Below are positions 26,399-52,572 of a stretch of 64,000 nucleotides of DNA, piece by piece. A model generated the notes under the pieces. It saw only the letters and a program-made list of their open reading frames with translations. It was not told where the DNA came from and did no database searches. How positions within the stretch are numbered: position 1 is the stretch's first letter; every line of letters begins with the position of its first letter. This stretch comes from Maribacter sp. (GTDB taxonomy: Bacteria > Bacteroidota > Bacteroidia > Flavobacteriales > Flavobacteriaceae). The DNA is taken from the NCBI GenBank assembly GCA_002749285.1, contig PDPR01000008.1, positions 248,001 to 312,000 of the forward strand, given 5' to 3'. Position numbers and translations under genes: made by a program.

Positions 26399-26503
26399 CA
26401 ACAACCTTGACCCAAACCAGGGGAACAAGATATACTTCCAAAAAAAATCCCCTTTTCAGAACAAGCCTCGGGCAATCGAATCCTTTTGGGCTATCATCCT
26501 TTA
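26399..26503 (+). repeat. Intergenic hairpin repeat, copy A (diverged)
   Basis: Copy A of the five-member repeat family. It shows CAACAACCTTGACCC, CTTCCAAAAAAA, CAAGCCTCGG and TTTTGGGCTATC in the same order and spacing as the others, but its hairpin arms are eroded. It lies in the 474-bp region between the aldehyde dehydrogenase and ilvD starts; the rest of that region holds the ilvD promoter. Confidence 0.65.
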
Positions 26504-26722
26504 ACTAAAATATTCCGGAACAAATTATCGCCATTGTCCTTTGGCCGGTATCGGCAACCCCGCCCCACACTTTAAAAATGTGCCCCAAAAACATATTAAA
26601 AGTATTGAGTATGGTATAAAAAGTACATCTAATCACCTGACAAACAATATTTTAGACAAATTAAACAAGTATTGGATTTAGAGCAGGAAACATTGTTAAA
26701 AATTTAGCTTTTATTATTAAAT

Positions 26723-26730
26723 TATATTTG
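26723..26730 (+). promoter_or_regulatory. Candidate -7 box for the ilv operon
   Basis: TATATTTG matches TAnnTTTG and lies 49 bp before the ilvD ATG, giving a leader of about 40 nt. No TTG is at the ideal distance upstream (nearest 26694-26696, 26 bp away). No leader peptide rich in Ile, Leu or Val and no attenuator hairpin was seen. Confidence 0.4.
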
Positions 26731-26779
26731 ATCGTTGAATAACATGTAGCAGCATAGATCATCGATAATTATTTTCCAG

Positions 26780-28456
26780 ATGGAACTGAATAAATATAGT
26801 AAAAATGTAACCCAAGACCCTACACAACCTGCCGCCCAGGCTATGTTGTACGGAATTGGTTTCAAGGATGGGGATTTTGACAAACCATTGGTCGGTATTG
26901 CAAGTACAGGTTATGAAGGCAACCCCTGCAATATGCATTTGAACGATCTGGCGAAACTGGTGAAGGAGGGAGTCAACTCAAAAGAGACCGTAGGGTTGAT
27001 CTTCAATACTATCGGTGTCAGTGACGGAATTTCAATGGGAACACCTGGAATGCGTTTTTCCCTACCATCAAGGGATATTATTGCGGATTCCATGGAGACC
27101 GTTGTACAGGGTATGTCCTATGATGCCTTGGTCACAGTGGTAGGCTGTGATAAAAATATGCCCGGGGCCTTAATGGCCATGTTACGCCTGAACCGACCCG
27201 CCATTTTGGTATATGGGGGCACTATAGCATCAGGTTGTCATAACCACAAAAAATTGGATGTCGTTTCCGCTTTTGAGGCTTGGGGGGAGAAAGTGGCCGG
27301 CACCATGAAGGAATCTGATTTTAAGAGTATTATCAAGAAGTCAATTCCAGGAGCTGGGGCATGTGGTGGCATGTATACGGCCAATACCATGGCCTCAGCC
27401 ATAGAGGCATTGGGTATGTCGCTGCCCTATAATTCTTCCAACCCGGCCATTAGCGACGATAAGGAGGCTGAGTGTTTGGCCGCAGGGAGACAAATGCGTG
27501 CCTTAATAGAAAATGATATTAAACCTTTGGATATCGTAACCCGAAAATCATTGGAAAATGCCATACGTTTGGTAACGATACTGGGGGGGTCAACAAACGC
27601 AGTGCTTCATTTCCTCGCTATCGCGAGGGCTGCGGATATTGAATTCACACTACAGGATTTCCAACATATTAGCGACACAACGCCTTTCATTGCCGATTTA
27701 AAACCAAGTGGCAAGTACTTGATGGAAGATGTACACCAGGTAGGTGGAATACCAGCGGTATTGAAATACTTGCTAAAGAACAATCTTTTACATGGTGATT
27801 GTTTGACCGTTACCGGTAAAACAATGGCCGAAAACCTGAAGGATGTGCCTGATCTGGAGGAAGGCCAGGATGTGATCATGCCCTTGGACAAACCTATCAA
27901 ACCTACCGGTCACCTACGGATCCTTTATGGGAATTTGGCAGAAAATGGATCCGTTGCGAAGATTACAGGTAAAGAAGGTTTACGCTTCAAAGGTAAGGCG
28001 AAGGTATTCGACAGTGAATACAATGCAAATGATGGAATACGAAACGGACTCGTTAAGAAAGGGGATGTTGTCGTAATCCGATATGAAGGCCCTAAGGGCG
28101 GTCCAGGTATGCCCGAAATGCTAAAACCAACCGCTGCCATTATGGGAGCAGGTTTGGGAAAGGAAGTCGCATTGATCACCGATGGCCGGTTTTCAGGCGG
28201 CACACATGGATTTGTTGTGGGGCATATATCCCCAGAGGCACAGGAAGGTGGGGTTATTGCCTTGGTGAAGGATGGGGATACCATAGTAATCGATGCCGAA
28301 ACGAATTCCATAAATGTGGAAGTCCCGGCAGATGAACTTGCACAGCGTAAAACCAAATGGACACAACCAGAATTAAAATTCAAGAAAGGGATATTGTACA
28401 AATATGCAAGATCCGTCTCATCGGCGGCCCAAGGTTGTGTTACCGATGAATTTTAG
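26780..28456 (+). CDS. ilvD: Dihydroxy-acid dehydratase
   Basis: 558 residues, standard length. It dehydrates dihydroxy-acids to 2-oxo acids for valine and isoleucine. The iron-sulfur ligands are visible as Cys in GNPCNMHL (about residue 50), GCDKNMPG (about 118) and GACGGMYTANTM (about 191). LITDGRFSGGTHGFVVGHISPEA near residue 470 is the C-terminal family signature. It is the first gene of ilvD-ilvB-ilvN-ilvC-ilvA; ilvB follows after a 79-bp gap. Confidence 0.97.
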   Translation: MELNKYSKNVTQDPTQPAAQAMLYGIGFKDGDFDKPLVGIASTGYEGNPCNMHLNDLAKLVKEGVNSKETVGLIFNTIGVSDGISMGTPGMRFSLPSRDIIADSMETVVQGMSYDALVTVVGCDKNMPGALMAMLRLNRPAILVYGGTIASGCHNHKKLDVVSAFEAWGEKVAGTMKESDFKSIIKKSIPGAGACGGMYTANTMASAIEALGMSLPYNSSNPAISDDKEAECLAAGRQMRALIENDIKPLDIVTRKSLENAIRLVTILGGSTNAVLHFLAIARAADIEFTLQDFQHISDTTPFIADLKPSGKYLMEDVHQVGGIPAVLKYLLKNNLLHGDCLTVTGKTMAENLKDVPDLEEGQDVIMPLDKPIKPTGHLRILYGNLAENGSVAKITGKEGLRFKGKAKVFDSEYNANDGIRNGLVKKGDVVVIRYEGPKGGPGMPEMLKPTAAIMGAGLGKEVALITDGRFSGGTHGFVVGHISPEAQEGGVIALVKDGDTIVIDAETNSINVEVPADELAQRKTKWTQPELKFKKGILYKYARSVSSAAQGCVTDEF

Positions 28457-28535
28457 AAAATTATAATCAAAATTTGCCCCTTTTTGGGGAGTTAAAGGGT
28501 GATATTTACGACCGCCCAATATAGTGTTAACAGTT

Positions 28536-51838: not shown

Positions 51839-51863
51839 AAACGAAAATTTATTGTAATAAAAT

Positions 51864-52319
51864 ATGGCCAAGTCGCAACAGACATTTAACAAGAGTGAAA
51901 AAGAAAAGAAACGTTTGAAAAAACGTGAGGAAAAACAAAAGAAAAAAATAGCCCGGAAAGCTGCTGCCAAGGAAAGTGGTGGTGGTATCCAGTATGCTTA
52001 CGTTGATTACAACGGTAATTTAACCGACACACCTCCCGATCCATCCCAGAAGATAGAAATAGAGGCAGAGGATATTGTATTGGGAATCCCCAAGAAAGAG
52101 GAAAGTGATGAAGAGAAGTTCGATCCTGTAAGAACAGGTAAGGTTTCCTTTTATGATTCTTCCAAAGGGTTTGGGTTCATTATAGACGCTGTCGACCAGG
52201 AAAAATACTTTACCCATGTTAGTGGTCTGATCGATGAAATCGCGGAAAATGACAAAGTATCCTTTGAGCTGGAAAAAGGACAACGGGGAATGAACGCTGT
52301 CAGGGTCAAGAAAATCTGA
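51864..52319 (+). CDS. Cold-shock-domain protein with Lys/Glu-rich N-terminal extension
   Basis: 151 residues. Residues 1-40 are strongly basic (KSEKEKKRLKKREEKQKKK, then IARKAAAKESGGG), residues 40-85 are an acidic linker, and residues about 89-151 are one cold-shock OB fold: TGKVSFYDSSKGFGFIID with the RNP1 K-G-F-G-F-I, and KYFTHVSGL as RNP2-like. It should bind single-stranded RNA. The extension makes it about twice the size of CspA and could contact RNA or ribosomes without specificity. It is monocistronic, followed by a hairpin terminator. Confidence 0.92.
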   Translation: MAKSQQTFNKSEKEKKRLKKREEKQKKKIARKAAAKESGGGIQYAYVDYNGNLTDTPPDPSQKIEIEAEDIVLGIPKKEESDEEKFDPVRTGKVSFYDSSKGFGFIIDAVDQEKYFTHVSGLIDEIAENDKVSFELEKGQRGMNAVRVKKI

Positions 52320-52353
52320 CAAGATACCATTTCATAACAGATTTGATTTTAAG

Positions 52354-52379
52354 GGCCGTAATACTTTTACGGTCTTTTT
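52354..52379 (+). terminator. Terminator after the cold-shock-domain gene
   Basis: 8-bp arms GGCCGTAA / TTACGGTC (one G-T pair), 5-nt loop, then TTTTT, 35 bp after the stop. Confidence 0.75.
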
Positions 52380-52470
52380 GTTCCTTGTTATATCGATTGG
52401 ACCCCTTTTTTTTCCAAGGATGTACATACGGACTGGCATAAAGGATAATCACTTTTTGTCCTATTTGAAT

Positions 52471-52572
52471 CAACAACCTCGACCCAAGGGCACGATATCT
52501 TCCGAAAAAACTTTTGTTGTTCCGAGGCAAGCCTGGGGGAATCAGGCCCTTTTTGGCTATCGCCCTGCGATT
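52471..52572 (+). repeat. Intergenic hairpin repeat, copy E
   Basis: Copy E is well preserved: CAACAACCTCGACCCAAGGG, CTTCCGAAAAAACTTTT, CCGAGGCAAGCCTGGGG (hairpin 2 with one mismatch), CCCTTTTTGGCTATCGC and ATCGC-CCT-GCGAT (hairpin 3). It lies in the 426-bp gap between the cold-shock-domain gene and the DMT permease; nothing else is recognised there beyond the terminator. Confidence 0.8.

Follow-up and report, generated by a model that had tools for sequence, protein, structure and literature searches.

A gene-less intergenic repeat of Maribacter with ends like those of an IS200-type insertion sequence

Five copies of a short, hairpin-rich sequence lie between the genes of a 64,000-nucleotide stretch of Maribacter sp. 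DNA (GenBank assembly GCA_002749285.1, contig PDPR01000008.1, positions 248,001 to 312,000; this whole stretch is here called the window). What is this repeat, and what has spread it? A first-pass annotation had left it without a name. Our analysis indicates that it is very probably a non-autonomous derivative, reduced to its ends in the manner of the PATEs, of an IS200-type insertion sequence (IS) of the Flavobacteriaceae, and that it is predicted to be moved in trans, as single-stranded DNA, by a TnpA transposase of the Y1 (HUH) kind.

The repeat and its parts

The window occupies C1:248001-312000 of its assembly (G000; 21 contigs, 2.07 Mb, 68% complete). Searching it with a profile built from 28 G000 copies (28 of the first 30 loci, with L022 and L029 left out) returned exactly five copies, all on the plus strand: the earlier count is borne out, two of the five being degraded. 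The copies fall between long open reading frames, as had been noted, and the 22-base block at the 3' side occurs twice in the window without mismatch, where 0.00 occurrences are expected from shuffles. The order of blocks described earlier holds for copies 2, 3 and 5, but not for copy 1, whose 3' end is degraded, or copy 4, which has lost the last blocks. Comparison with IS loci (below) indicates that the strand read at first is the complement of the transposed strand. The features are as follows.

26397..26506, plus as read (the transposed strand would be minus): copy 1, 3' end degraded (profile match 26395-26510, 54.5 bits; sequence)
32374..32479, plus: copy 2, complete (profile match 32372-32485, 114 bits; sequence)
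32374..32377, minus: copy 2, predicted right cleavage site CR (TGAT on minus)
32382..32402, minus: copy 2, hairpin 1, the predicted right-end hairpin (also at the right end of IS200 tnpA loci; covaries across families)
32403..32406, minus: copy 2, predicted right guide GR (pairing code)
32407..32430, plus: copy 2, A/T-rich linker, where the parent IS has tnpA (sequence; comparison with IS loci)
32431..32444, minus: copy 2, hairpin 2, the predicted left-end hairpin (counterpart in 21 left ends)
32448..32451, minus: copy 2, predicted left guide GL (TATT on minus; pairing code)
32467..32480, plus: copy 2, hairpin 3, with none in the left ends of parent ISs (one-base overlap with the target tetranucleotide)
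32480..32483, minus: copy 2, target tetranucleotide and left cleavage site CL (TCAA on minus)
38153..38262, plus: copy 3, complete; CL at 38263-38266 (profile match 38151-38268, 102.7 bits; sequence)
51519..51585, plus: copy 4, 5' part only, with right end, linker and start of hairpin 2 (profile match 51517-51656, 33.9 bits, real in its 5' half only; sequence)
52469..52570, plus: copy 5, with a shortened 3' arm in hairpin 1; CL at 52571-52574 (profile match 52467-52576, 113.4 bits; sequence)

The left guide of copy 2, TATT, differs from the family's GATT at its first letter, and the pair there fails. Complete window copies measure 102-110 bases, too short for a transposase gene. Inspection by eye of 30 copies gives sharp ends (AATCAACAACC on the left; GCGA followed by TTAA or a variant on the right) and no terminal inverted repeats (compare AATCAACAACC with TTTAATCGCAG, the complement of the other end). 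Palindromes, namely hairpins 1, 2 and 3, lie near both ends.

These ends bear on the earlier suggestion of a miniature inverted-repeat transposable element (MITE). A classical MITE moved by a DDE transposase would also be short, gene-less, multi-copy and mobile, and in that spirit the term fits. However, the ends are not inverted repeats, and what stands beside the insertion appears, at the sites that can be read, to be a fixed tetranucleotide and not a duplicated variable target. The repeat is rather of the IS200/IS605 single-strand kind, and a DDE-driven MITE is to our minds the least probable of the explanations considered here.

The ends resemble those of tnpA-carrying insertion sequences

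The check for a Y1_Tnp gene, proposed in the first-pass annotation, proved productive: the telling gene lies in a relative, and G000 itself keeps only a TnpA fragment of the parent clade. Among the Y1_Tnp matches of G101 (metagenome-assembled genome CSMAG_568) is an intact gene for a TnpA of 152 amino acids (L259), with a weak match to the repeat profile at its end. Hairpin 1 of the repeat forms the right flank of this gene, and on the left there is a hairpin-2-like stem. The protein scores 115.5 bits against the NCBIfam IS200/IS605 transposase model NF033573 (cut-off 55) and 105.8 bits against Pfam Y1_Tnp PF01797 (cut-off 23); its best matches in the PDB are solved IS200-type transposases (4.2e-16), with the ISHp608 transposase at 7.6e-11. 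It contains the motifs NHVH and Y-V-x-x-Q, and those given for the IS200 subclass are DH[VI]H and Y---Q (PMC6006769).

A tblastn search covering 397 genomes from the window's family, themselves drawn from a larger group, found relatives in 31. Thirty IS loci were fetched. The right end is hairpin 1 in 17 of the 30 (located by strings taken from known flanks), typically GATA-CCTCG...CGAGG-TAGTTCATT; a left end with a counterpart of hairpin 2 could be read in 20 of the 30 and in L259, typically TTTAATC...GAATTC-CCCGACGC. In the rest, the IS200 is of another clade, a contig end truncates the locus or one end is gone. Since only the ends are common, the repeat profile (R1) matches these loci weakly (best E 0.0053). 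Where an end is shared the likeness can be complete: the right end of L271 equals that of the ends-only copy L043 at 34 of 34 bases, and the window family consensus at 31 of 34. The repeat thus looks like the left and right ends of such an IS without its tnpA. In G000 the parent clade is represented by the TnpA fragment at C20:50554-50700 (L297; 57% identity over 49 residues), whose intact-looking left end is one of the 20 read, and which lies about 2 kb from the repeat copy at C20:48627.

A different IS200, at G000 C17:91430-91948 (L036), was considered as parent and rejected. This decayed element of another clade lies within the A/T linker of a copy, which it splits. It runs in the opposite sense and has its own hairpins, and a second IS200 (C8) has no adjoining repeat; it is therefore taken as a nested insertion. 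It is one of five Y1_Tnp matches in G000, none of which is flanked by whole copies.

Frames of about 190 amino acids with a Y1 domain occur in G102 (C9:169011, C8:2533; L260, L264), G099 (L261) and G101 (L266), and from the motif YIHQNP or similar they look like RAYTs (PMC6006769). Such frames, present in G102 and more weakly in some copy-bearing genomes, raise the possibility first suggested for this repeat, that it consists of REP/BIME palindromes processed by a domesticated RAYT (TnpA_REP). It too is intergenic, multi-copy, hairpin-rich and linked to the Y1 superfamily, and a Bacteroidetes subclass (2.6) with atypical structures and copies elsewhere in the genome has been described (PMC6006769). 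Yet the 5' foot is GATA, CATA or AATG where GT[AG]G would be looked for; the length is 102-110 bases against 21-65; none of the five Y1_Tnp matches of G000 is flanked by whole copies; the tnpA that carries these ends, that of G101 (P0001), matches the IS200 equivalog model; and one copy-bearing genome, G032, has no Y1_Tnp at E<=0.01. We give this explanation only a slim chance.

Guides and cleavage sites pair and covary

In IS608 the cleavage sites pair with guides 5' of the hairpins (GL AAAG with CL TTAC, GR GAAT with CR TCAA; PMC5934647). The rule applied here pairs cleavage letter 1 with guide letter 2, 2 with 1, and 4 with 4; of the three left-end pairs that paper names two, and the rest is our own reading. 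By this code the guide and cleavage tetranucleotides of the repeat pair, and they covary between subfamilies. The parent ISs mostly read TTAA/AATT on the left and TCAT/GATA on the right (cleavage site/guide), the window family T[TC][AG]A/GATT and TGAT/CATA, and the G032 copies TTAT/AATA and TTAC/AATG. Among the IS ends, 19 of 21 on the left and 16 of 18 on the right make the full set of three pairs.

Across 33 right ends position 2 pairs in 28, as against 13.6 after shuffling (0 of 20000 shuffles reach this), position 4 in 30 as against 26.5 (127 of 20000), and the nearly invariant position 1 in 32 as against 32.0. Related rows inflate these counts; among the 11 distinct code pairs, positions 1, 2 and 4 pair in 10, 6 and 9. 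The set omits L284 (cut tail) and takes L283 as TTAC, shifted by one base from the fixed slice, at which L283 fails. It uses 14 of at least 21 ends-only matches: L171 and L181 (wrong stretch), L044 and L178 (hairpin broken), L180 and L185 (no left end) and L172 (foot unclear) were left out, and four more matches, from G100, lie outside it. Within G000, with G:T pairs counted, the 27 left ends pair at position 1 in 25, at position 2 in 22 and at position 4 in 24 (20, 8 and 24 without G:T); for the 26 right ends the corresponding numbers are 22, 23 and 24 (without G:T 22, 18 and 16).

Two IS200 loci, L283 (G424) and L286 (G170), have left ends with the G032-type code TTAT/AATA; in L283 the right end reads TTAC/AATG with a one-base shift, so that this locus has the G032-type code at both ends. 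Judged by these letters, the parent of the G032 element would most likely be an IS of this type.

Stem covariation between families, not within G000

Hairpin 1 was aligned over 37 sequences (17 of the 18 IS right ends, L283 being left out, with 2 sequences from G024, 13 from G000 and 5 from G032). In this alignment 79.1% of cells are paired, compared to 70.3% after shuffling, and double changes fill 39 cells, compared to 16.1 and well above slid controls. Between-family covariation was measured for hairpin 1 only. Among the 28 G000 copies (19 pairs) there is no such signal: 89.2% of cells are paired before and after shuffling, and double-change cells number 4, compared to 5.9. Thus the three hairpins recur as annotated, but the compensatory changes proposed as a check are found between families, in hairpin 1, and the stems show no excess of them within G000. 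An RNAalifold consensus that joined the two outer arms was discarded, its covariation term being almost nil, and the named stems were tested instead.

Recurrent hairpins, one of them covarying between families, could also mark a structured RNA with a host function: an mRNA tail, as first suggested, a leader or a small RNA. The lack of covariation among the G000 copies argues against a functional RNA. Moreover, the gene contexts are divergent and convergent alike, with no clear link to gene strand; an Rfam scan of the window gave no match at gathering score; and 11 congeners gave no match to the repeat at E<=0.001. An RNA function is in our view highly improbable. Most simply, pairing would matter for movement, and copies, once inserted, would decay, presumably neutrally.

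Copy number, age and relatives

The proposed search for further copies found them: 53 profile matches in G000 at E<=0.01 (40 matches by BLAST). The earlier estimate of hundreds per genome was too high; 53 matches in 2.07 Mb of a 68% complete assembly mean tens per genome. The identity of 28 G000 copies averages 80% (range 69-92%), and the repeat is thus an old family in this genome. Under stricter filters than those of the G000 count, three of 98 other genomes match at E<=0.001: G032 (15), G024 (2) and G075 (1). Three named Flavobacteriaceae metagenome-assembled genomes containing a 25-base pattern of the repeat have 5, 10 and 7 matches at E<=0.01. An exact 27-base pattern had no match in viral contigs.

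The complete genome G032, searched with its own copy, holds 15 full copies of 96-100% identity, which points to recent amplification, plus two with an insert in the middle. Their inner stem differs en bloc from that of the window family (GTGC/GCAC vs ACCC/GGGT).

G032 also contains a second, longer modular family (C1, L096-L106 and L116-L145), of about 180-240 bases with repeated middle modules. Its 5' hairpin and GTAAAC edge are as in the short copies, and its 3' end is GATGATCGAGTAAA. Many copies include a hairpin with a T run that resembles a terminator; in 21 of 30 copies the gene upstream has the same sense, its stop codon often at the element edge. The BOX-type repeats of Streptococcus are likewise made of modular hairpin blocks, a likeness by description only.

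Orientation follows replication

Within the window all five copies have the same orientation, as annotated, but this does not extend to the genome (37 plus vs 16 minus). Orientation instead follows a rule best seen in G032. There GC skew (20 samples, a few of them weak and one contrary) turns near 1.2 and 3.1-3.2 Mb, and 16S genes lie on the plus strand at 1.82 and 2.39 Mb and on the minus strand at 3.61 Mb; from the skew and these three genes, the region 1.25-3.15 Mb is read as replicated rightward. All 17 of 17 short G032 copies then obey one rule: the transposed strand is the G-rich strand, the lagging-strand template. In G000 the same rule is obeyed by 41 of 51 copies (of the 53, C10:12847 and C21:27576 were left out) and by 36 of the 40 at which |skew| > 0.03. 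Neighbouring G000 copies switch orientation in 7 of 37 cases, compared to 15.9 after shuffling (p 0.00075). Flanking gene strands, assigned with a crude ORF caller, showed no clear pattern with copy orientation (30/53 G000 copies, 15/17 G032 copies). A review states that the orientation of IS200/IS605 elements recapitulates the direction of replication (PMC5371812).

Contig C1 of G000 has a GC skew that is weak or reverses sign, and its copies are of mixed orientation, unlike those of most other contigs.

Such polarity would also be expected of a functional site tied to replication direction (KOPS- or Ter-like), its orientation held by selection. But the bias is already present in near-identical, recent copies; the distribution is patchy (the three genomes of 98); and the ends are those of a transposon. 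We rate a selected polar site no higher than an RNA function.

Insertion sites

Copies in G032 have fixed edges (L090 was left out of this reading). Six filled G032 sites were compared with the congener G102, in which the element is absent. At L116 and L124 (long relatives) and at L087 (short) the tetranucleotide region is present once, at the insertion point, with some differences in the flanks. The native stop codon is also the TAA of the element edge at L124 and at L078.

A model of movement, and what weighs against it

On the minus strand the repeat would read, in order, CL; the left end (hairpin 3, GL, hairpin 2); the A/T linker in place of tnpA; and the right end (GR, hairpin 1, CR). We suggest that TnpA, supplied in trans, binds hairpins 1 and 2 and that each guide pairs with its own cleavage site; the element strand would then be peeled off the lagging-strand template, to be pasted in on the 3' side of a tetranucleotide that matches. 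Peel-and-paste of a single strand would set orientation by the direction of replication, leave no target duplication and make gene strand irrelevant.

Several observations count against this account. The left ends of the parent ISs lack hairpin 3, which is an addition relative to them. Many left-end pairs in G000 are G:T, with position 2 Watson-Crick in just 8 of 27. Not all empty sites are clean; at L089, at L136 and on the right of L078 divergence is too great for a reading. The dnaA gene of G032 lies at 3.29 Mb, near the presumed terminus. The long G032 relatives, despite similar ends (5' hairpin, TAA edge), have no orientation bias (21 of 40 scored, of 142 candidates). Of the 13 copies on C1, 7 oppose local GC skew and make up 7 of the 10 exceptions in G000; four of the five window copies oppose the rule, at local skews of +0.06, +0.03, +0.002 and +0.008. 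Inversion, nearness to the origin or terminus, or an assembly error are possible explanations of the C1 exceptions. Finally, despite its near-identical copies, G032 yields no Y1_Tnp at E<=0.01, and the two matches that appear at E<=10 do not convince; a lost, a plasmid-borne or a very divergent enzyme would each explain this. It is conceivable, though on balance doubtful, that in G032 the derivative is still multiplying, moved by an unrecognised enzyme or by a transposase that visits and leaves, with guide letters rewritten relative to most parents and a target word for each subfamily.

With the ends-only account an unnamed intergenic repeat becomes a readable mobile element, and annotators could mark such copies as such rather than call them RNA or regulatory sites. 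The repeat is also evidence from nature for compensated changes in the evolution of the IS200/IS605 guide/target pairing code, and its natural copies, by the tens, show that replication polarity is kept. It further raises the puzzle of which enzyme would move ends-only copies where a genome has no Y1 transposase.

Comparison with known systems

In the open-access literature (subscription papers and ISfinder being outside the scope) we found no ends-only IS200 family of the Flavobacteriaceae. Integron attC sites, group II introns, IS91 and IS110 were also considered as candidates, with no search aimed at them. Related kinds are known. REP/BIME elements with RAYTs are also multi-copy hairpin DNA tied to Y1 enzymes (PMC6006769), whereas the present repeat lacks the GT[AG]G foot, is longer and has two distinct ends and an IS200-type parent. 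IS608 shares the order of parts, with guides 5' of each hairpin that pair with the cleavage sites, and inserts on the 3' side of a fixed tetranucleotide, which remains at the left flank (PMC5934647). It differs in carrying tnpA and tnpB; the repeat has neither, uses other letters and has an extra hairpin between CL and GL. A PATE-like sequence of Halanaerobium hydrogeniformans is likewise an ends-only IS605 derivative, but is present as one copy of about 271 nt; for that genome no strand bias was seen, tnpA being on the leading strand in 10 of 22 cases (PMC7290912).

The closest likeness is to the PATEs of Haloquadratum walsbyi (PMC3119063). These too are too short for a transposase, lack terminal inverted repeats, have near-terminal palindromes and share their boundaries with IS605-type transposons; they make no target duplication, as the few readable sites here also suggest. 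They also move where tnpA genes are pseudogenes, insertions having been seen although the IS200-type genes of one strain are pseudogenes, a puzzle like that of G032. The host differs, being here bacterial and of another phylum, and the parent IS here has, as far as read, tnpA only. Set against the PATEs, the present repeat is one for which replication orientation and guide/cleavage covariation have been examined.

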